NCBI GenBank assembly: GCA_030427805.1
Contig: JAUICP010000005.1
Location: forward strand, 310,001 to 374,000
Origin: Bdellovibrionia bacterium
GTDB taxonomy: Bacteria; Bdellovibrionota; Bdellovibrionia; Bdellovibrionales; JAGQZY01
DNA length: 64,000 nucleotides
Direction: 5' to 3'
The notes beneath the pieces were generated by a model. That model ran no database searches and was not told where the DNA came from. It saw nothing but the letters and a program-made list of their open reading frames with translations. The position numbers and the translations under genes were made by a program. Positions 4,658-52,465 of the stretch are shown piece by piece. Position 1 is the stretch's first letter. Each line of letters opens with the position of its first letter.

Positions 4658-5137
4658 TCATTTGCCTTCCGTGAAACGCAAACTGTACTCCAGTTCGACT
4701 TCTCCACAGGCACCTTCGTTAAAGACAAAGAACTGAATCCCATACTCAGCTTTATCCATGAGCTCGAAGGCAACAACTCCGCCAGGAACAAGCAACTGTC
4801 TTTTTTGAATCTTATCGCCAATGACGCTCACTAAATTCATCTCTACGATGGGGTCAACAGCACAGTCATCGTGCTTTGTCTCTAGTGATTCAAGAGTGAT
4901 TTCTCCCTTATTCGTCAACAATATAGGAAGAGTCGAAAGTGCGAAGTTATCCCTTAAGCGAAAACTCACACGATTTTCAATACTATCCTGATTGCCAGCT
5001 TTAGAAAATCGAACAGGCTGATTATTTCGCCAACCATTTTTAGTGCCTTCGATCGGAGATCTTGCCTTTTCTTTACCGCATGAAATTGAAAACAGAATTG
5101 AAGTGAGTAATACCAATTTAATGAGACGAATGAACAT
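4658..5137 (-). CDS. Small lipoprotein, unknown function
   Basis: I start it at the ATG at 5137 because GGGGGAGAAGATA lies directly before it; a longer frame to 5161 lacks such a site. The 159-residue product opens with a basic stretch, a hydrophobic core and a lipobox ending SISC followed by GKEK, so it should be lipidated. The rest is a short, probably beta-rich domain of no recognised family. Its start overlaps the end of the ALDH-like gene by 20 bases, which indicates translational coupling and a shared operon with 5118-7939. Confidence 0.8.
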   Translation of the reverse strand: MFIRLIKLVLLTSILFSISCGKEKARSPIEGTKNGWRNNQPVRFSKAGNQDSIENRVSFRLRDNFALSTLPILLTNKGEITLESLETKHDDCAVDPIVEMNLVSVIGDKIQKRQLLVPGGVVAFELMDKAEYGIQFFVFNEGACGEVELEYSLRFTEGK

Positions 5138-30419: not shown

Positions 30420-30977
30420 TTAGAACAAGTACTTAACAGTCACTCCACCATTGATATACTGAGTCTCTTCAAGATCAACAGTCGTTGGCGTTCCAAGAAT
30501 ATCTACTTCCGCTTCAGTTTCAGCCGCAACAAGATAGTTCGCTTCAAAATCAATAGTCACTTGGTTGTTTACTTTAAATGAGTAGCCAAGGCCCCCACCG
30601 TAGGCAAGCGCATATTCATCAACTTCAACTCCAACAGTTTTCGAGTAACGATTCACCATACCGGCTTTACCCGAAACAAAAAGTCCTTCAACTAAAAAGA
30701 GATCCGCAGAACCCATGGCAAAAAGGTCTGATGCTTCTGAGTCAGCCGGCATATCTTCTGTATCCATCGGGTTATACATGACATGAAGCCCGAGATTGAG
30801 ATTGTTCATGGAGTAACCGAGCTTACCACCATAAGCAATAGCCGGATCGACATCGTCTTCTTGCATAGCCGAGTAAAGCCCTTGGGCACCAACATATAGG
30901 TTGTTTGCCAAAGCCATGTGTGAAAATGTGAAAAAAGAAACTGCAAAAGTTAAACTTAAAAAGATTCGACTTAACAT
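30420..30977 (-). CDS. Outer-membrane beta-barrel protein
   Basis: I start at ATG 30977, five bases after AGGAGG, which is decisive. The product is 185 residues: signal peptide cut after ALA, then eight likely strands of an OmpA/OmpX-size barrel. It ends in TVKYLF with a terminal Phe, the classic outer-membrane assembly signal. Function is unknown; small barrels of this type are usually structural or adhesive. Confidence 0.82.
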   Translation of the reverse strand: MLSRIFLSLTFAVSFFTFSHMALANNLYVGAQGLYSAMQEDDVDPAIAYGGKLGYSMNNLNLGLHVMYNPMDTEDMPADSEASDLFAMGSADLFLVEGLFVSGKAGMVNRYSKTVGVEVDEYALAYGGGLGYSFKVNNQVTIDFEANYLVAAETEAEVDILGTPTTVDLEETQYINGGVTVKYLF

Positions 30978-31139
30978 AAAGTCCTCCTTGGTTTTCAGTT
31001 CACAATCAGTTTCGACGAAATTTTGATTTGCAACCAGCATTTGGATCACGGAGCATTCCAAACCTGGTAACCTCTTCTATTTATTGAATTCTTTGGCTTG
31101 AAATTTATTGAGACTGGCCTCGATTTGGCCTAATGACAC

Positions 31140-32126
31140 TCATTCTGGAACATTGGGAATATCAAAAGGATACACTCCCATGTAACTTCCCTGCCAAATA
31201 TAGCAGGGCTTTTCACTCTCAGACTTACGAGAACATTCCCTCTCAGTCCCTATGCTCTTATAAGAGTTGAAATCAAGCCATCGCCCGATAAAGGCATCAA
31301 CGTAGCCATGGAGCTTCCAAAAAATAGGATTGGCGTGGGCTGAAAGATTATCGCCAAGGTCATCGCAGCTCTCTTTATAGATCTCGCGATTTTCAGGGCA
31401 TTTCCTTTCGACCACTGAATAGTCTTCAGAATAAGTGGTGTGAAGCATGATATGAAGCGCTTGAATATGAGCGCCCAACTCATTGAGGGTCCAAGTCTTT
31501 AAGCCCTCTTCCATCTTATCAATCTCGGCGCGAATCCATCGGTAATTGCCGTGATTGATTTCGTTGGGAATTGGCCAATTTCTATCTAGGGGATCATTTG
31601 GAACTTCTGACCACGGAGCAATGCAGGCCTGGCCATTAAAAGAGAGTTCAAAGTAGAGCATTTTAATCATTTGTCTGTGCATAAAAAAGAAACTCTCACC
31701 CCAGTGGGCTTCATTTCGCGCCAAATATTCGCTTTTAGTCTCCTGAGACAAGGCGTGCCCCATACTCTTAATCTTTTCAAATTCGGAATCAGTAAGCTGA
31801 ATGCCATCGTTGAAGGAATTATGCCAATAGAGATGCCAATAGCGATGGGACCAACTCTTCAGCATGGGCATAACGCTCTCTAGCTGGCCCGTCCTCCACG
31901 TATCGCTGCAACCCCTACAGATATTCCAGTCAGACTCCCCTTGAACCTTACAGACTCCTGCCTGAGTCTCATCTGCGATTCCATAGGGACTGTAGAGCTC
32001 TAGAAACTGCTTAGGGAAACTCGATTCTTTGTGGTTTTCAGCAAAGAGATTAAGCGAACCACATACACTTTGTGCATGGCTGTAATGTGAGGCTAATAAA
32101 AGAAAAATCAGTACTATTTTACGCAC
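31140..32126 (-). CDS. Secreted tyrosinase-like (type 3 copper) protein
   Basis: A 328-residue protein that starts with GTG at 32126, after AAGGAT, giving a signal peptide cut near SHA-Q. Two regions match the tyrosinase/hemocyanin copper sites. CuA-like: HWGESFFFMHRQMIKMLYFEL near residue 140, the HxxxxFxxxHR...FE pattern. CuB-like: LHIMLH (HxxxH) near residue 224, then NPIFWKLHGYVDAFIGRW near 272, matching the FWxHHxxxD signature with its second His. About eight Cys may be disulfides. It may oxidise phenols outside the cytoplasm. I judge this by motif only. Confidence 0.65.
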   Translation of the reverse strand: MRKIVLIFLLLASHYSHAQSVCGSLNLFAENHKESSFPKQFLELYSPYGIADETQAGVCKVQGESDWNICRGCSDTWRTGQLESVMPMLKSWSHRYWHLYWHNSFNDGIQLTDSEFEKIKSMGHALSQETKSEYLARNEAHWGESFFFMHRQMIKMLYFELSFNGQACIAPWSEVPNDPLDRNWPIPNEINHGNYRWIRAEIDKMEEGLKTWTLNELGAHIQALHIMLHTTYSEDYSVVERKCPENREIYKESCDDLGDNLSAHANPIFWKLHGYVDAFIGRWLDFNSYKSIGTERECSRKSESEKPCYIWQGSYMGVYPFDIPNVPE

Positions 32127-32293
32127 GGTCCGTATCCTTAATCTACTTTTGGCTCGACTTGGGTTTTGCAATCTAAAGTCCAACAGCGGAGGGCAATACA
32201 ACCCCGTCCATCCGCTAGTTTTATTGAGTTCATAACTTAGGTCTAAAAGGTCACGGGGCCTATGTTCCGAAAAGACTTAGGGAGACCGGATTT

Positions 32294-32872
32294 ATGAAAC
32301 TATTCATTTTTGGATTCATTGCAGGAAGCCTCTTGGTGGGCCTTTTAGCATCACATCTTGCAAGTGATCGATCAGAAATCATTCTGACCCGTACAGTGCC
32401 CAATAACTCACCTCCCAAAGAGAACTGCCGAAAAAGTAAAACGACACAGGCCTCTAGAGAGTCGCGAAGTCCTAGTGCTCAACAAAAAACCGTCGAGCCG
32501 CAACCGACTCTCAAAAAAGAGAGTCCAAAAATCACTCTTCCCGCTCCGGTTTTTCATAAAGACCTACCAACGAGCCTCGATACAGTCCCGCCAGGAGAGG
32601 TAAAAGTTCAATGGACTGCACCAAAACGAGCCAAGCGGACACGAGTTTATATTTACGACCACAACAACAAACTCGTTAAAACAAATAGTACTGTAAAAGA
32701 AAAACTCTTTTTAAAAAACATACCCTATAACGACCCAAGCAAACCGGTATTGAGGTACACCATTCGCCTTTCATCGCAGGACAAAACCGGCCAATGGGGC
32801 CAGGTTTCAAAAGCAAAAACCCTTTGGGTTCACAAGAGACACTTTGAATCACTCCGAGTGACCAACAAATAA
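32294..32872 (+). CDS. Membrane-anchored protein with fibronectin-like domain
   Basis: A 192-residue protein with one N-terminal membrane segment (residues 3-20), a low-complexity Ser/Lys/Pro linker (about 40-90) and a C-terminal beta domain (VKVQWTAPKRAKRTRVYIYD...) resembling a fibronectin type III fold. GGGAGACCGGATTT ribosome site precedes ATG 32294. Function unknown; it probably sits in the periplasm tethered to the inner membrane. Confidence 0.7.
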   Translation: MKLFIFGFIAGSLLVGLLASHLASDRSEIILTRTVPNNSPPKENCRKSKTTQASRESRSPSAQQKTVEPQPTLKKESPKITLPAPVFHKDLPTSLDTVPPGEVKVQWTAPKRAKRTRVYIYDHNNKLVKTNSTVKEKLFLKNIPYNDPSKPVLRYTIRLSSQDKTGQWGQVSKAKTLWVHKRHFESLRVTNK

Positions 32873-37229: not shown

Positions 37230-38216
37230 ATGATGGCCTTTCATACGACCAATCCTAGCCTTTTCTTTTCGAAGAACGATCGGGCTGATATTCGCCTGGG
37301 AGAAATTTGCCAAAGAATTGATTATTCCGGGGGTCTTGTTGAACTTAAAGATGTTCTTAAAAGTCACGATAAGCAAAAGCAGCACTATTATTTAGCCGGC
37401 TATCCAGACGACAAGGGTATTGAACTCAACGGTGGGCGGGTCGGCGCTAGAGAAGCTCCAGATACGATACGTAAATTTCTCTACAAAATGACACCCTCTG
37501 CGCAAAGCGAAAGTCATAGTTTCTATGATATTGGAAATTTAGAAACTTCTAAAGAACTGGAAGAGAGACACGACACCGCCAGGCGATTCGTCAAAGCCTG
37601 TTTAGAAAATTCTGGAAACTTTATCGGACTCGGTGGAGGGCACGACTACGCTTATCCCGACGGAGCTGGTTTTCTCCAACATCTCGAGGACAGCAAAAAC
37701 AAAAAGCGGCCCGTCGTACTCAATTTCGATGCTCACTTGGATGTTCGCCCCTCAGACCGAGGTCTTTCGAGCGGCACACCCTTTTTTAGATTAATTAAAG
37801 ACTTTCCAGACCAATTTGATTTTTATGAGATCGGGATTCAATCCCACTGTAATAGTCCAAATCACATTCAATGGGCAAAAGACCACAACGTAAAAATTCT
37901 CAATTTCGAAAAACTCAATCGATCCGGAAAATCCCTGGTTGAATCTATTCAGAAAAAGTTTTCTAAGAAAGACGAGGGACGTCCCTGTTACCTTTCTATC
38001 GATATTGATGGGTTTTCATCGGCTTTTGCAATGGGTTGCAGTCAAAGCTGGGCCACTGGTTTGACCCCAAATGACTTTTTCCCCTGCCTTGCCTGGCTCA
38101 GGGAATTTTTCGATATTCGAGTTCTCGGTATATATGAGGTTTCGCCTCCCCTTGATCTAGATGATCGAACATCAAAATTGGCCGCCCAAATTATTTACAG
38201 CTATTTAAATTTTTAA
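37230..38216 (+). CDS. Arginase-family hydrolase (formimidoylglutamase-like)
   Basis: A 328-residue ureohydrolase. The di-manganese ligands are in GGGHDYAYPDG, NFDAHLDVR and LSIDIDGF. The GGGHD form, with Gly before His, is closer to formimidoylglutamase (HutG) than to arginase (usually GGDHS). It probably hydrolyses formiminoglutamate or another guanidino/formimino compound. No hut genes are nearby; instead it begins an operon with a threonine aldolase, an AsmA-like protein and tryptophan dioxygenase (spacings 10, -4, -4). Confidence 0.85.
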   Translation: MMAFHTTNPSLFFSKNDRADIRLGEICQRIDYSGGLVELKDVLKSHDKQKQHYYLAGYPDDKGIELNGGRVGAREAPDTIRKFLYKMTPSAQSESHSFYDIGNLETSKELEERHDTARRFVKACLENSGNFIGLGGGHDYAYPDGAGFLQHLEDSKNKKRPVVLNFDAHLDVRPSDRGLSSGTPFFRLIKDFPDQFDFYEIGIQSHCNSPNHIQWAKDHNVKILNFEKLNRSGKSLVESIQKKFSKKDEGRPCYLSIDIDGFSSAFAMGCSQSWATGLTPNDFFPCLAWLREFFDIRVLGIYEVSPPLDLDDRTSKLAAQIIYSYLNF

Positions 38217-38226
38217 AGGGAGAACC

Positions 38227-39255
38227 ATGCGAGGCTTTGGCAGTGATAACCACGCGACAGTACATCCCGAATTACTTGCCGCAATTAACGACGCTAATTT
38301 AAACCATGCACCCAGCTATGGAACTGATGACTGGACGGATTCAGCAAATAAAAAAATAAGATCTATTTTTGGAACTGAATGGCATCCATTCTTTGTTTTT
38401 AATGGCACAGCAGCCAATGTTTTATCCCTTGGCAGTCACCTTGAAAGTTTTCATAGCGTCGCTTGTGCAGACGTCAGTCACCTCAACGTCGATGAATGTG
38501 GGGCTCCCGAAAAAATTGCTGGAGTAAAACTCATTCCCCTTAAGAGTCACCTCGGGAAGGTCTCTGTCGACACTATCGAAGAGGTAAGAATTCGTCTAGG
38601 CGATCAACATTTTTCGCAATTAAAAATGGTGTCGATCACACAACCGACAGAACTTGGTACCGTTTACTCATTGGAAGAAATTAAGGCGATCGCTTCCTAT
38701 TGTCAGAAACATGAATTACTTCTTCATCTCGATGGAACTCGATTTTTTAACGCCTGTATAAGCCTTGATTGCGAGGCTCCCGACATAGCTCGCTATTTCG
38801 ATGTCATCTCACTCGGTGGAACAAAAAATGGCTTTATGATGGGTGAAGCGGTATTAGTGAAAAATCCTGAAAGAGCAAAAGTATTTAAATTTTTCAGGAA
38901 GCAGTACTTACAACTCCCTTCTAAAACTCGCTTTATTTCTTGCCAATTTGCGCGCTACTTTACTAATGAACTCTATCTAAAAATCGCAGCACACTCATGC
39001 TCTATGGCTAAACAACTTGAACAACGAGTACGCGAAGTCCCTTTTATGGACATTTTATACCCTGTTGAGAGCAATGCTGTTTTTGCTCGTTTCCCTAAAA
39101 AGTTTCTAAAGAAGATGCGGGAAAAATACTTTTTTTATGTTTGGGACGAAAATGATTTTAGCGTTCGCCTTATGACTTCATGGGATACCACAGAAGAAGA
39201 CATTGAGGGGTTTTATAATCAGGCTATGGAACTGACACGGGAGACTTCACTTTGA
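38227..39255 (+). CDS. Threonine aldolase family (PLP enzyme)
   Basis: A 342-residue fold-type I PLP enzyme of the low-specificity threonine aldolase group. SDNHATVHPE opens it, HLDGTRFFNA holds the PLP Asp, and SLGGTKNG holds the Lys that forms the Schiff base. It splits L-threonine into glycine and acetaldehyde, or acts on related beta-hydroxy amino acids. AAAGGGAGAACC is a clear ribosome site. Co-transcribed with the genes on both sides. Confidence 0.92.
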   Translation: MRGFGSDNHATVHPELLAAINDANLNHAPSYGTDDWTDSANKKIRSIFGTEWHPFFVFNGTAANVLSLGSHLESFHSVACADVSHLNVDECGAPEKIAGVKLIPLKSHLGKVSVDTIEEVRIRLGDQHFSQLKMVSITQPTELGTVYSLEEIKAIASYCQKHELLLHLDGTRFFNACISLDCEAPDIARYFDVISLGGTKNGFMMGEAVLVKNPERAKVFKFFRKQYLQLPSKTRFISCQFARYFTNELYLKIAAHSCSMAKQLEQRVREVPFMDILYPVESNAVFARFPKKFLKKMREKYFFYVWDENDFSVRLMTSWDTTEEDIEGFYNQAMELTRETSL

Positions 39256-39665
39256 AATTTGTGCTTTATACTTTTGCATTTCTATCCTCTCTTTTTACGC
39301 TTTTTGTTCTATGCCTATTGCTTTTACTTAATATCAACGGCGATCAGTGGCTTAAAGATGGCCTACAAAGTGAGATTAAAGATCAGTTTGGGGTCAACGC
39401 ACGAATTGAGTCGGCTCAATTCTCTCTCATAAAGCCTGGAATCGAAGTTCAGGGGTTTTATGCCCCAATACAATATCCTCCCTTGAAATTACGTTTTGAA
39501 AAATTTAGGATTGCCTTTAATTTTCAACTTCTCAACCTATTTGATGCTGATAAAGAGGTCCTCGATATGGACCTTGAGCTCAAAGAGCCCAGAATGAGTT
39601 TTGGGGCCCATGGAAACGAAGATGAAGTGAGTGCCGATGAACCTACACAGGACGGTGAACAATGA
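39252..39665 (+). CDS. Short AsmA-like membrane protein
   Basis: A 137-residue protein that starts with TTG in a TTGA overlap with the upstream stop. It has one membrane segment (residues 3-26) then a domain like the N-terminal part of AsmA/TamB proteins (INGDQWLKDGLQSEIKDQFG, IEVQGFYAP). Normal AsmA proteins are several times longer, so this is a mini form or a truncated relative. Its end overlaps kynA by four bases (ATGA), so translation is coupled. Confidence 0.65.
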   Translation: MKFVLYTFAFLSSLFTLFVLCLLLLLNINGDQWLKDGLQSEIKDQFGVNARIESAQFSLIKPGIEVQGFYAPIQYPPLKLRFEKFRIAFNFQLLNLFDADKEVLDMDLELKEPRMSFGAHGNEDEVSADEPTQDGEQ

Positions 39666-40756
39666 CAAAATACCCACCCATTAATTATTCCGACTATCTC
39701 CAGCTCGATAAAGTTTTAAACGCCCAAGACTTGCGGAGCGAGGAATATAATAAAAAGGCCCATGACGAACATCTCTTTATAATTATTCATCAAACCTACG
39801 AATTGTGGTTTAAACAAATTTTATTCGAAGTTGATTCGGTTTTAGAACTCTTTGGGCACGATCACTTTGATGAGTCCCACATGGGTATTGTAATCTCTCG
39901 GTTGAATCGAATCATCGAGATCGAACGGGTGCTCGTCGATCAAATTAATATTCTTGAAACTATGACTCCCCTGGATTTTCTCGACTTCAGAGATTTTCTC
40001 GTACCGGCTTCTGGATTTCAGAGCCTGCAGTTTCGACTCCTCGAAAACAAACTCGGTCTCGTTCCCGAAAAACGTCTTACCTATACAGAGAGCTACTATT
40101 CCGAAGCCCTTCGTGAAGATGAAAAGAAACACGTTCATGAGGCTGAAAAAGCCCCTTCTCTGTTTGAACGGGTCGAAGCATGGCTTGCTCGTACTCCTTT
40201 TCTTAAATCACCCGATTTTGATTTTTGGGGAGTTTATAAGGATGCTGTGATAAAAATGTTTCAGGACGAAGAAGAACTTATTAGAAATAATACGTCTCTG
40301 ACTGAGAAGGATATCGAAAACAATATTGAACAACTCGCAAAATCTCGAGAGATTTTTGATGGCCTCCTCGATAAAGACAAGTATCAAGAACTTCAAGACA
40401 AAGGGCAGTTCCGTCTTTCGTATGACGCCCTCCACGGAGCTCTTTTTATTCTACTCTATCGAGACGAACCAGCACTCCAACAGGCGTTCTCGTTCATTAC
40501 CTGCCTGCAAAACATCGATGAGCTGCTCACACAGTGGCGATACCGTCATTCCCTAATGGCCTTGCGTATGCTCGGCAGCAAGGTGGGGACAGGAGGCAGC
40601 TCTGGTCACAAGTACTTACGAGCTGCTACCGAAAAGCACAAAGTATTTCATGACTTCTTCAATTTAACGACCTACTTATTGCCACGCTCAGCTCTTCCAC
40701 AGTTACCTGAAAACTTTAAAAGAGAACTGAATTTTACATTTACTCATAAAAAATAG
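39662..40756 (+). CDS. kynA: Tryptophan 2,3-dioxygenase
   Basis: A 364-residue heme enzyme. EHLFIIIHQTYELWFKQIL at the start and QWRYRHSLMALRMLGSKVGTGGSSG near the C-terminus match TDO; the His in the latter is the heme ligand, and the GTGGSSG loop is close to the substrate. It converts L-tryptophan to N-formylkynurenine. At 364 residues it is nearer to the longer animal-type enzyme than to the roughly 280-residue bacterial form, with an insert around residues 130-240. Kynurenine formamidase is 1.3 kb away on the other strand. Confidence 0.95.
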   Translation: MTKYPPINYSDYLQLDKVLNAQDLRSEEYNKKAHDEHLFIIIHQTYELWFKQILFEVDSVLELFGHDHFDESHMGIVISRLNRIIEIERVLVDQINILETMTPLDFLDFRDFLVPASGFQSLQFRLLENKLGLVPEKRLTYTESYYSEALREDEKKHVHEAEKAPSLFERVEAWLARTPFLKSPDFDFWGVYKDAVIKMFQDEEELIRNNTSLTEKDIENNIEQLAKSREIFDGLLDKDKYQELQDKGQFRLSYDALHGALFILLYRDEPALQQAFSFITCLQNIDELLTQWRYRHSLMALRMLGSKVGTGGSSGHKYLRAATEKHKVFHDFFNLTTYLLPRSALPQLPENFKRELNFTFTHKK

Positions 40757-40793
40757 AGTCGTCCGCCATTGATTTCTCGAAAATCGACTGGGG

Positions 40794-41942
40794 CTAGATC
40801 CCTGGTCGATCCTTCAGGCGATAAAAGCTGTTGATGATATAGTGATAAAGAGCATCCGAAGCAGCAGAACTTAAATACTGTTCGCAAAAATTACCGGCGT
40901 ACCAATTGTCGGTAGCCTCAATCTCACCTTCTTGCAGTTCACATCGGCTATTAAGGGCGTCCACAACTTCTTCGAGACTAAAATTGCACTGAATATTGAT
41001 TGGCCGAGCAAACCGAATTTGAAATTCGACGGCCAATGCTTCGTCACATAAATTGGTTTCGGCAACAACATCGGCCTCTGCGATACCGATTTCAGGAAAA
41101 ATATCGACCCGTTGTTCCCGAGAGTCCTGCCCGACGCTCAATAAATCGTCTCGAATGTCATCTTGATAGGAGAGTGTTATGAAACGAGCTTCATCATACT
41201 CGGGAACATTGTAGCGAGGTGGTTCATCGACTCTGTAGGTGAAGTAACTCGCTGAATAGACAAACTCATAGGTCTGTGTCGAAAAAAATGAAGCGGTGTC
41301 TGAGTTTTTCAGAACACGAAAGGACTCCGAAGGCTTGCGAACATAGTTTTGGATCGCGTAAAAGTAACTGGGGTATTCGGCCATTAAATCCAGATACTGG
41401 TGGCGTAAGCTCCGACAGCTCCTCGGAATCGAAGATACACTTAACTCTGAAGACTCTCCAATTCTTAAGCTATTTTGGTAATCAATAAGACTCTTTCTTA
41501 ATGATTTAATTTCTCGAAGTCGGTTATCAAGATTTTCATCTCCGACCAATTGAGGCCCTGTCAGACGACAAGAAGGACTTACTTGTTCCTGGGAAAAATT
41601 CTCTTTTTCATAAAGGCAACCTGAAAAGGTCTGAAACCTTGAGTTCGTCTCCACCAGGTCTTCGAAGTGGTCATAGTGGGTCAGGTTCGAAATACGCGCA
41701 TTGATAAAGGATCTATAGTTCTGAATAACTGATTCGACGACGGTATGAATCTTTGGAGCCCTGGCAAAGCTATCAAAACTATTAGAAAATCTCTGGATCG
41801 TCTCAACACCCTGACAGATTGAACCACCGTGAAGCCTAGAAACCTGAATTGTATCTTCGGTCCTGATTTGTTCTTGAGAGATATAGGCCTGAGACAATGA
41901 GCTCAAAATTGCTACAAGAAAGGTTAGAGCAAGAATTTTCAT
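40794..41942 (-). CDS. Secreted protein, unknown function
   Basis: I start at ATG 41942 (MKILALTF), after GTGAGATAT; the frame extends to 41966. A signal peptide is cut after SQA. The mature 365 residues are rich in Arg, Ser, Tyr and acidic residues, with about eleven cysteines, suggesting a disulfide-stabilised extracellular protein. No family is recognised. It converges with kynA, ending 38 bases from its stop. Confidence 0.7.
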   Translation of the reverse strand: MKILALTFLVAILSSLSQAYISQEQIRTEDTIQVSRLHGGSICQGVETIQRFSNSFDSFARAPKIHTVVESVIQNYRSFINARISNLTHYDHFEDLVETNSRFQTFSGCLYEKENFSQEQVSPSCRLTGPQLVGDENLDNRLREIKSLRKSLIDYQNSLRIGESSELSVSSIPRSCRSLRHQYLDLMAEYPSYFYAIQNYVRKPSESFRVLKNSDTASFFSTQTYEFVYSASYFTYRVDEPPRYNVPEYDEARFITLSYQDDIRDDLLSVGQDSREQRVDIFPEIGIAEADVVAETNLCDEALAVEFQIRFARPINIQCNFSLEEVVDALNSRCELQEGEIEATDNWYAGNFCEQYLSSAASDALYHYIINSFYRLKDRPGI

Positions 41943-42054
41943 ATATCTCACAGAGCATCTTTTCATTCATTTCATAGGGGCAATTTGAATGCCAGGTATA
42001 AAACGAAAAAGACTGCGGCAATACCTCCTAAACCGTTTAAATAAGGCGGGAATT

Positions 42055-42717
42055 TCAGTCACGTGCGGGATTAAGGGGCTCTTTTAGGTCACCCTGAGGC
42101 AGCAAAATTGCGCGGACGGGACTGGCATCCCCATCTTTGATCGGAAGCGGAAGACTGATCAAACTATACTCCCCTTCGGACACAGAGCTTAAAACGAGGC
42201 CTTCAAGGACAGAAACATCGTTTCGCAAAAGAGCTTGGTGACTTTCAAGCTTCTTAGAATCTTGGGGGTCAACTGAAGGGGTATCAATTCCAACAAGAAC
42301 AACCCCTCGCCCAGCAAGTTCATCAATAAGCTCCGGCGATAAACTATTAAAATCAGAATTCCAAGAGTTGGGATCGGGAAAGGAATTCGTCTTAAAAAGG
42401 ATCCGCGGTCGCTTAACCGCAGACATATCAATATCTTCGACTTTGATTCTCTCTCCTGCGGGCAGGCCCGTCACATCAAAAACTTGGCAAGCTCCAAAGT
42501 AAATTCTTAAATCCTTTTGCTCGATCCCCGGGGAATTGGCCCCGTAGTGATTAACAGCATCGCAGTGAGCGCCAATGTGCAAAGTCGTGGTCACCGATGA
42601 TAAACCAAGGTGATCACCTTTATCACAATCCATGTGAACTTTTCGTTCAAAAGATTGATCTCCTGGGAAGACGGCGGTCTTTTCACTAATCAAGGGACTA
42701 ATATCTATGATGATCAT
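42055..42717 (-). CDS. kynB: Kynurenine formamidase / arylformamidase (cyclase family)
   Basis: A 220-residue cyclase-family hydrolase. The zinc-binding motif appears as TTLHIGAHCDAVNHYG, with SPLISEKTAVFPGD at the start. KynB hydrolyses N-formylkynurenine to kynurenine, the step after TDO. The nearby kynA makes this assignment likely over other cyclase-family roles such as isatin hydrolase. No kynureninase gene is in the window. It directly follows the peroxiredoxin gene with one base of overlap, so the two are co-transcribed. Confidence 0.88.
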   Translation of the reverse strand: MIIIDISPLISEKTAVFPGDQSFERKVHMDCDKGDHLGLSSVTTTLHIGAHCDAVNHYGANSPGIEQKDLRIYFGACQVFDVTGLPAGERIKVEDIDMSAVKRPRILFKTNSFPDPNSWNSDFNSLSPELIDELAGRGVVLVGIDTPSVDPQDSKKLESHQALLRNDVSVLEGLVLSSVSEGEYSLISLPLPIKDGDASPVRAILLPQGDLKEPLNPARD

Positions 42718-51178: not shown

Positions 51179-52465
51179 TTATTTTTTAAAGATCCGCTCA
51201 ATGCCCTGCCAGCACTGCTGATAAGCCTTGTCCCTTTGTTCAGACTTCATGGCCTTAGGAGTTGGCCGGTAAATTTGATTACTTTCAAACATAAAGGCCA
51301 TGGTTTTGCCCTGATATACTGGTTTTAGTTCGCCGCTTGATGCCTTCTTAAAGGTATCGGCATCGGGACCATGTCCAGACATGCGGTTGTGAAGGCTCGC
51401 TCCACCGGGTTGAAAACCCTCGGCTTTTGCGTCGTACACCCCCTCGAGAAGCCCCATGTACTCATTCATGTAATTTCGATGGTAGTAAGGCGGACGAAAC
51501 GTATTTTCAGCCACCATCCAACGGGGCGGAAAAATCACAAAATCAACATTAGCAGTACCTTCTGCAGTCGTGGGCGATGTCAGTACCGTAAAAATACTAG
51601 GATCAGGGTGATCAAAGCTCACCGTATTGATCGTATTAAAATTGCGAAGATTGTATTTGTAGGGCGCGAGGTTACCGTGCCAGGCAACCACATCGAGAGG
51701 GCTTTGTTTCAAGCACGCCTGATAAAGATAACCAGCAAATTTATTAAAAAGTTTAAACTCCCCTGTTTTATCCTCAAAAGATGCCACAGGATATTGAAAA
51801 TCCCTAGGATTGGCCAAACCATTAGCTCCGATCGGACCTAAATTGGGAAGACGAAAGGGCTCGCCAAAATTTTCAGTCATATAGGCGGATACTTTGCCCC
51901 CCAGAGGATTGACTTGAAATTTCACGCCTCTAGGAATGACTGCAATTTCACAAAGACCCACTCGTAGCTCGCCCATTTCAGTTCGAATTTGCATTTCATT
52001 TTTGAAGGGTAAAAAAACAATTTCACTGTCAGAAGAGTAAAAGAAACTGTTTTCCATCCCTTGATCAAATTCGAGATGATAGATTGCAGAGCCCGACTGC
52101 CCGACTTCACCATTTCCGGCCATACAAATGAGACCTTGAAGAAAATTCTTCCCCTCACCGTTCAGTTTTTGTGGAAACCAACGAAGCTGATTCGGTGTGG
52201 GAGGTAGCTCCATCCAAGGTGAACCTGTAAACTCATTGTGAGCGACCTGTTCAAACTCGCCGTGAACAACCGTCGGTGTGATTCGGTAGAACCAACTTCT
52301 TAAATTATGATCCCGCGGCGCTGTAAATGCAGAACCCGAGAGCTGCTCGGGATAAAGTCCATACTCGGTTTTTTGTGGGGAGTTTTGACCTCGAGGAAGA
52401 GCGCCCGGTAAGGCTTCGGTTTCGAAATGGCTGGCAAAGCCGGTCATGTATTTGAGATCACCCAT
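51179..52465 (-). CDS. hmgA: Homogentisate 1,2-dioxygenase
   Basis: A 428-residue cupin dioxygenase. PPYYHRNYMNEYMG and LHNRMSGHGPD carry the iron-binding His and Glu residues. The start MGDLKYMTGFASHFETEALPGALPRGQNSPQ and NLRSWFYRI agree with the family. It opens the homogentisate ring in tyrosine/phenylalanine degradation to maleylacetoacetate. No fumarylacetoacetase or isomerase gene is in the window. Confidence 0.97.
   Translation of the reverse strand: MGDLKYMTGFASHFETEALPGALPRGQNSPQKTEYGLYPEQLSGSAFTAPRDHNLRSWFYRITPTVVHGEFEQVAHNEFTGSPWMELPPTPNQLRWFPQKLNGEGKNFLQGLICMAGNGEVGQSGSAIYHLEFDQGMENSFFYSSDSEIVFLPFKNEMQIRTEMGELRVGLCEIAVIPRGVKFQVNPLGGKVSAYMTENFGEPFRLPNLGPIGANGLANPRDFQYPVASFEDKTGEFKLFNKFAGYLYQACLKQSPLDVVAWHGNLAPYKYNLRNFNTINTVSFDHPDPSIFTVLTSPTTAEGTANVDFVIFPPRWMVAENTFRPPYYHRNYMNEYMGLLEGVYDAKAEGFQPGGASLHNRMSGHGPDADTFKKASSGELKPVYQGKTMAFMFESNQIYRPTPKAMKSEQRDKAYQQCWQGIERIFKK

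Follow-up and report, generated by a model that had tools for sequence, protein, structure and literature searches.

Our analysis suggests that the window, i.e. the whole 64,000-nucleotide stretch of Bdellovibrionia DNA that was analysed, probably encodes an exported, stand-alone enzyme with a type-3 copper site that is of the same kind as PvdP, the pyoverdine tyrosinase of Pseudomonas. Three observations carry this reading. Namely, exactly six histidines are invariant among 19 aligned relatives, PvdP is the closest match of known structure, and arthropod prophenoloxidases and hemocyanins match the protein better than ordinary tyrosinases do. As its copper site is closer to those of the insect and crab enzymes than to that of ordinary tyrosinases, the protein probably oxidizes phenols outside the cell, and it bears on the origin of the animal proteins.

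The open reading frame lies where the preliminary description had placed it (Table 1), and all of the motifs quoted from it are present: HWGESFFFMHRQM corresponds to residues 141-153 and is followed by YFEL, LHIMLH to residues 224-229, and NPIFWKLHGYVDAFIGRW to residues 266-283. In a sibling genome of the same genus, the corresponding protein (L002) is 91% identical and starts at the identical position, with TTG as its start codon. Between the two genes, dN is 0.046 and dS is 0.388, which gives a dN/dS of approximately 0.12 by the Nei-Gojobori method; for comparison, the values for the neighbouring superoxide dismutase-like gene are 0.004 and 0.375. In other words, the copper gene is maintained, albeit less tightly than housekeeping genes, and purifying selection appears to act on it between the two members of the genus. 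Taken together, the sibling identity, the dN/dS ratio and the homologues in the phylum argue for a real gene and against a chance frame.

Table 1. Location of the copper-protein gene, of its sequence features and of surrounding genes in the window.
Feature	Positions	Strand	Remarks
Copper-protein gene	31140-32126	-	328 aa; GTG start at 32124-32126; stop codon within span
AAGGA, likely ribosome-binding site	32135-32139	-	8 bases 5' of GTG, read from the sequence
Signal peptide, residues 1-18	32073-32126	-	likely cleavage after SHA; no twin arginine; by eye
HRYWHLYWH, residues 94-102	31821-31847	-	predicted CuA ligands H98 and H102 (HxxxH), 19/19; H94, 13/19
H141	31704-31706	-	nine residues before H150, at the site of the second CuA His of ordinary tyrosinases; 4/19
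GESFFFMH, residues 143-150	31677-31700	-	predicted third CuA ligand H150, with F146 four residues before; 19/19
HIMLH, residues 225-229	31440-31454	-	predicted CuB ligands H225 and H229; 19/19
FWKLHGYVD, residues 269-277	31296-31322	-	predicted CuB ligand H273, with F269 four residues before and D277 four after; 19/19
Small gene, divergent	32294-32872	+	192-aa frame, hydrophobic start
Outer-membrane barrel-like gene	30420-31061		
Tryptophan 2,3-dioxygenase	39662-40753		
Putative cyclase	42055-42714		
Homogentisate dioxygenase	51179-52462		

The putative copper ligands were read from an alignment of 19 relatives (A4), PvdP included, most of them at 20-34% identity. Left out of these rows were same-gene copies (L001, L005, L006, L018 to L024 and others), the near copies H2, H4 and H5, the His-less L009:1501-2445 (which equals L015 and L030), L033 with three lost ligands, the C-terminal remnant L013/L028, and L014, which matches by its signal peptide only; L012, L029, L031, L036 and L037 were cut to the copper domain. 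The columns invariant in all 19 rows are H98, H102, F146, H150, L214, H225, H229, F269, H273, D277 and W283, so that the only invariant histidines are H98, H102, H150, H225, H229 and H273. The CuB half had been read correctly in the preliminary description, H225, H229 and H273 all being invariant, and the CuA half has to be redrawn. In particular, its CuA motif (HWGES...MHRQM) relies on H141, which is a histidine in four of the 19 rows and was rejected as a ligand of the family, with H98 and H102 invariant instead. On the other hand, HRYWHLYWH, mentioned there as an uncertain candidate for the first CuA histidine, does hold H98 and H102, even if its leading H94 is not conserved throughout. The resulting CuA layout is H98-(3)-H102-(47)-H150. 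Apart from the window protein, the histidine at position 141 occurs in L002, L035 (Rhizobium) and L037 (Mesorhizobium), apparently in three lineages, where it may be due to chance or may be a relic.

According to excerpts of a 2013 survey (PMC3658974), type-3 copper proteins are marked by a Phe that precedes the third His of each site by four residues and by an Asp that follows the last His at the same distance. These are the places of F146, F269 and D277, which accompany the six histidines in every one of the 19 rows. The same excerpts give the CuA site of the alpha and gamma classes as H1(n)H2(8)H3 and place H2 of the beta class elsewhere; the window protein is arranged in the latter fashion, its second CuA His not standing eight residues before the third. 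Judging by its sequence, it is a type-3 copper protein, and not one of the usual bacterial kind.

Searches against known structures point in the same direction. With the window protein alone as the query, phmmer finds PvdP among PDB sequences at an E-value of 4.6e-8 and an arthropod phenoloxidase lower, at 0.65. A profile built from 8 sequences without PvdP (A1) and run against 177,635 PDB sequences again ranks PvdP best (2.3e-37), followed by Manduca phenoloxidase (3hhs_B, 6.5e-7; 3hhs_A, 5.8e-6), hemocyanins at approximately 2e-4 (3ixv, 1.8e-4), mosquito prophenoloxidases and the fungal protein AsqI (5yy2, 0.31); no alpha chain is found among its 13 matches up to an E-value of 10. The wider profile A4, of which PvdP is a part, finds PvdP at 1.4e-80, phenoloxidase chains at 2.5e-6 and 0.0016, a hemocyanin at 0.03 and the best alpha tyrosinase only at 0.64. 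The divergent relatives added in A4 weaken most of the arthropod matches, which counts against our reading: 3hhs_B goes from 6.5e-7 to 0.0016 and 3ixv from 1.8e-4 to 0.03, while 3hhs_A moves from 5.8e-6 to 2.5e-6. As a control, a single ordinary tyrosinase of the phylum (L047, genome G200) was searched in the same manner, and the 60 of its 62 matches that were listed are all of the alpha or gamma class, including mollusc hemocyanins, with neither PvdP nor an arthropod chain among them. Finally, in a profile-profile comparison by hhalign, two ordinary tyrosinases from the phylum could be aligned over the CuB part alone, with a probability of 7.4%.

A structural model gives the same picture, within its own limits. 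The AlphaFold model, made from 6 sequences, is of middling quality (mean pLDDT of 61.9, pTM of 0.65, 98 of 328 residues below 50), and in it helices 92-106, 142-163, 214-231 and 267-286 each bear putative ligands. Aligning this model with VIA-align places PvdP on top (Z of 12.1, 221 aligned residues, rmsd of 4.1), followed by the prophenoloxidase PPO6 (Z of 10.2; 166 residues, 3.7) and Limulus hemocyanin (Z of 10.1; 167 residues, 3.8), where one should note the tool's own warning that helical models may reach a Z near 10 without kinship. Lower down are insect storage hexamerins (Z of approximately 9), mollusc hemocyanins (7.3 and 7.2) and tomato polyphenol oxidase (6.1), and unrelated chains score 3.1 and below, beneath the arthropod rows. 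Bacterial tyrosinase chains do not appear among the 30 matches listed, from which their exclusion does not follow. Foldseek also lists PvdP first, at 1.3e-3, and prophenoloxidase 8jib at 4.8, with nothing at an E-value of 0.001 or better. Either kind of search is modest by itself, and the two give one order: the nearest solved relative appears to be PvdP, and arthropod prophenoloxidase and hemocyanin come next, ahead of the ordinary tyrosinases.

The preliminary description had called the protein tyrosinase-like, had proposed a search against the Tyrosinase family and had regarded a better score against another family as an argument to the contrary. Tyrosinase (PF00264) is indeed the sole Pfam match, but with 20.0 bits it falls below the cut-off of 22.6 and covers only profile positions 152-211 of 214, i.e. 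the CuB part, while the PvdP model of NCBIfam (NF051454) outscores it at 41.9 bits (E-value of 4.6e-11; cut-off of 625). Eight of the 19 relatives match PF00264 at an E-value of 1 or less, with the one from G054 reaching 22.8 bits. As for Hemocyanin_M (PF00372, cut-off of 20.8 bits), the window protein has no match up to an E-value of 10 and its genome none up to 1, one of the 19 relatives matches at 0.015, and the 13 matches across 144 genomes of the phylum, none of them above the cut-off, are taken as chance. In its own genome, the copper gene is the only match both to PF00264 and to the PvdP model.

How does the protein compare with the systems already known? It shares with PvdP (6eys, 6eyv and 6rrp-6rrr, of which 6rrq is titled as copper-bound) the six histidines and the motifs GxxFxFMHR, HxxxH and NPxFWxxHGxxD, and it would be exported, as PvdP is. 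However, PvdP has approximately 190 extra N-terminal residues (model residues 77-321 align to residues 195-484 of its chain), a C-terminal tail that is missing from the window protein, and a twin-arginine start (MTVSRRGFM in L036) where the window protein has no twin arginine. What is more, the PvdP gene in L036 adjoins pvdM, ompQ and pvdT, whereas the window gene has no pyoverdine neighbours. The idea that the window protein is PvdP itself was rejected on the missing N-terminal domain and on the score of 41.9 bits against 625. That said, the profile match (2.3e-37), the VIA-align Z (12.1) and the common histidine columns all place it within the wider family of PvdP-like copper domains.

The likeness to arthropod prophenoloxidases and hemocyanins (3hhs, 8jib, 1lla and 3ixv; PF00372 middle domain) consists of a CuA HxxxH followed by GExFxxMH, and of a CuB HxxxH with F-xxx-H-xxx-D. 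Hemocyanin 3ixv, for instance, has HWHWH and then GELFFYMH, and the printed profile alignments show that the stretch after CuA, GLPxIxPW / GLPQVKPF, is also alike in the window family and the arthropod chains. In contrast to these chains, the window protein is one third to half as long and has no N- or C-terminal hemocyanin domains. It also appears to carry a signal peptide, while the animal beta class is given as cytosolic and without one in the excerpts of PMC3658974, which name a Phe placeholder over the active site as a mark of that class. With ordinary bacterial tyrosinases (PF00264; 1wx2 and 3nm8, as well as L047 and L048 of the phylum) it has the type-3 site and the CuB layout in common, but their second CuA His is placed elsewhere. 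AsqI, a fungal hemocyanin-like cyclopenase, resembles it in the HxxxH metal pair and a related scaffold, and differs from it in using zinc, in carrying out a ring contraction and in its full-length hemocyanin-like chain. By membership, the window protein would hence count neither as a canonical tyrosinase, nor as PvdP, nor as a hemocyanin.

The N-terminus of the window protein (MRKIVLIFLLLASHYSHAQS) reads as a Sec-type signal peptide when judged by eye, being composed of MRK, IVLIFLLLAS and HYSHA, with QS after the cut, and export would presumably follow the Sec route. Six cysteines (C22, C70, C73, C168, C298 and C308) are common to the six Bdellovibrionota rows of alignment A2, one of which is His-less, and such a set suits an exported, disulphide-bonded protein. 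With the signal peptide and the six invariant histidines, the earlier picture of a secreted protein in which the CuA and the CuB half of a binuclear site are both present was a sound one. Relatives without a signal peptide do exist: L032, L034, L035 and L038 start at most approximately 30 residues from the CuA motif, and the rhizobial and Paenibacillus proteins, like L032, have their start near the copper domain.

The family appears to be sparse and patchy, yet it spans at least three phyla, namely Bdellovibrionota, Pseudomonadota and Bacillota. Matches occur in 10 of the 143 genomes of the class, although in G012 the match is solely to a remnant and in G136 solely to a stretch of signal peptide, and within the phylum homologues occur in 13 of 368 genomes, with G012 contributing just the 60-aa C-terminal remnant. 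The scan of genome contigs gave three relatives. A close family member used as a query matches 8 of 72,556 plasmid records (3 from Rhizobium, 2 from Pseudomonas and 1 each from Paenibacillus, Sinorhizobium and Mesorhizobium). Two IMG/VR contigs match as well, and phage records give no match. In a maximum-likelihood tree built from the 19 aligned rows, the window protein groups with L002 (support of 96/93), while 11 rows including PvdP are split from the window clade (97/98) and PvdP itself pairs with the Mesorhizobium plasmid protein (98/98); every row outside these 11 comes from Bdellovibrionota. Genome G088 has tandem family genes, one (L009:2445-3734, minus strand) with the six copper histidines and the other (L009:1501-2445, minus strand) with none, and this pair may be likened to hexamerins beside hemocyanins. 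Since all six ligands are lost in L009:1501-2445 and three of the six in another member, L033:1-927 (plus strand), the family is not made up of copper enzymes throughout. Two genes on from the latter, L033:2489-2935 (plus strand) encodes a separate small protein similar to the N-terminal portion of L037, the PvdP-like protein from Mesorhizobium, which indicates that the front domain of PvdP can stand as its own gene.

In its genome, the copper gene stands by itself, flanked on one side by a small divergent gene and on the other by a gene for an outer-membrane barrel-like protein. The L002 locus does not have this small gene; there a frame ends at 4927, 73 bases from the start of the copper protein at 5001. 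When the neighbours of 18 loci were compared by mutual blastp at 1e-5, none was common to more than two loci, and no pvd-like gene was found in the window or beside its own or its relatives' loci. A hint of function had been seen in aromatic amino-acid genes elsewhere in the window. Such genes are present, namely those for the two dioxygenases and the putative cyclase. At a distance of 7.5 to 20 kb from the copper gene, and with no neighbour conserved among the loci, they provide no evidence of function. The regions 37230-42714 and 51179-52462 also contain arginase family and beta-eliminating lyase genes, and the amino-acid breakdown genes of the window would fit a peptide-eating life. Elsewhere in the genome (G000, contig C7), L071:4194-10490 encodes a protein of 2099 aa with ketosynthase, acyltransferase, class-III aminotransferase and condensation domains and no listed adenylation domain; it is preceded by amine oxidoreductase and cyclopropane-synthase-like genes, in what looks like an uncharacterised small biosynthetic cluster. 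The Mesorhizobium PvdP-like gene, L037:5112-7067, is followed by one annotated as a LodA/GoxA family CTQ-dependent oxidase, another quinone-type oxidase.

Because its six ligands are kept and because it is akin to PvdP, the protein is most likely an exported phenol or catechol oxidase that works outside the cytoplasm. The chain would cross the membrane unfolded by way of Sec and would fold, with its disulphides, either in the periplasm or beyond it. Between two pairs of helices it would then bind two metal ions, copper in all likelihood, in site A by H98, H102 and H150 and in site B by H225, H229 and H273, where site A would be laid out as HxxxH...H, like that of the animal beta class, and not as H-(n)-H-(8)-H, like that of ordinary tyrosinases from bacteria. 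With oxygen, such a site could produce an o-quinone from a monophenol or a diphenol, much as PvdP acts on a tyrosine.

Would other roles explain the same observations? One may think of a protein that binds or senses oxygen, as arthropod hemocyanins do beside prophenoloxidases, since hemocyanins lie near prophenoloxidase in the same profile and fold searches. In ordinary tyrosinases, an Asn after the first CuB His favours monophenol oxidation. This residue is Ile in the window protein and Asn in 8 of the 19 relatives. Still, the closest relative, PvdP, is an enzyme, and we know of no need for a small secreted oxygen carrier in single-celled bacteria, which makes this role unlikely. Rather unlikely, too, is another metal enzyme on the same scaffold, such as a zinc Lewis acid: the weak profile match to 5yy2 speaks for it, together with the excerpts of PMC6053404 that describe AsqI as hemocyanin-like and zinc-requiring, with its zinc on the HxxxH pair His176 and His180, while the six ligands kept in all 19 rows would be unneeded for one metal on two histidines.

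The kinship with PvdP could also be taken further, to an oxidase of a matured siderophore or of peptide tyrosine that acts on a peptide-synthetase product, in keeping with excerpts of PMC6206403 in which PvdP hydroxylates peptide tyrosine and oxidises the product to an o-quinone. We hold this to be quite unlikely, seeing that the window has no pvd-like gene, that the one condensation domain found in the genome sits in the above ketosynthase, acyltransferase and aminotransferase protein, which has no listed adenylation domain, and that the tree separates the clade of the window protein from the set that holds PvdP; a pyoverdine-type role was rejected on that single condensation domain. A divergent ordinary tyrosinase of the alpha class is very improbable. 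Its best arguments are that H141 stands exactly nine residues before H150, so that the two would form the H-(8)-H pair, and that Tyrosinase is the best Pfam family; against it, H141 is kept in so few rows when H98 and H102 are kept in all, alpha chains reach an E-value of 0.64 at best, and hhalign covers the CuB part only. An exported phenol or catechol oxidase is the reading that we prefer.

The window protein is a real and new variant among the PvdP-like proteins, secreted and with a copper site of the beta type. The likeness of PvdP to the arthropod proteins may have been published already. In the open-licence literature, we found nothing on such a protein for Bdellovibrio and tyrosinase, no paper joining PvdP with hemocyanin or haemocyanin, and nothing on bacterial relatives of arthropod hemocyanin, the beta-subclass and bacteria together leading to PMC3658974 alone. 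Bacterial tyrosinases have so far been treated as a single class, and the excerpts of this 2013 survey report no class but alpha from the bacteria that it covered and let the beta class, the source of arthropod hemocyanin and prophenoloxidase, arise in unikont eukaryotes. Given a bacterial family with a beta-type site over three phyla, the idea of a bacterial source can be put to the test in a phylogenetic tree. Being small and of a single domain, the window protein would also be a useful model of the arthropod site, which flanking domains block in the animal proteins. It is, moreover, a candidate new exported phenol oxidase for polymers and dyes. The histidines at both places of the second CuA ligand (H102 and H141 in the window protein, L002, L035 and L037) may be the record of a layout switch or a switch still in use. 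Tentatively, and with considerable doubt on our part, one can further propose that the PvdP-like proteins, with the secreted Bdellovibrionota clade as a deep branch, represent the bacterial side of the type-3 copper beta class. If this were true, a duplication in early amoebae, fungi and animals would not be the starting point of the beta class, and the ancestry of arthropod hemocyanin would lead back to a phenol oxidase of a bacterial type, secreted or cytosolic.
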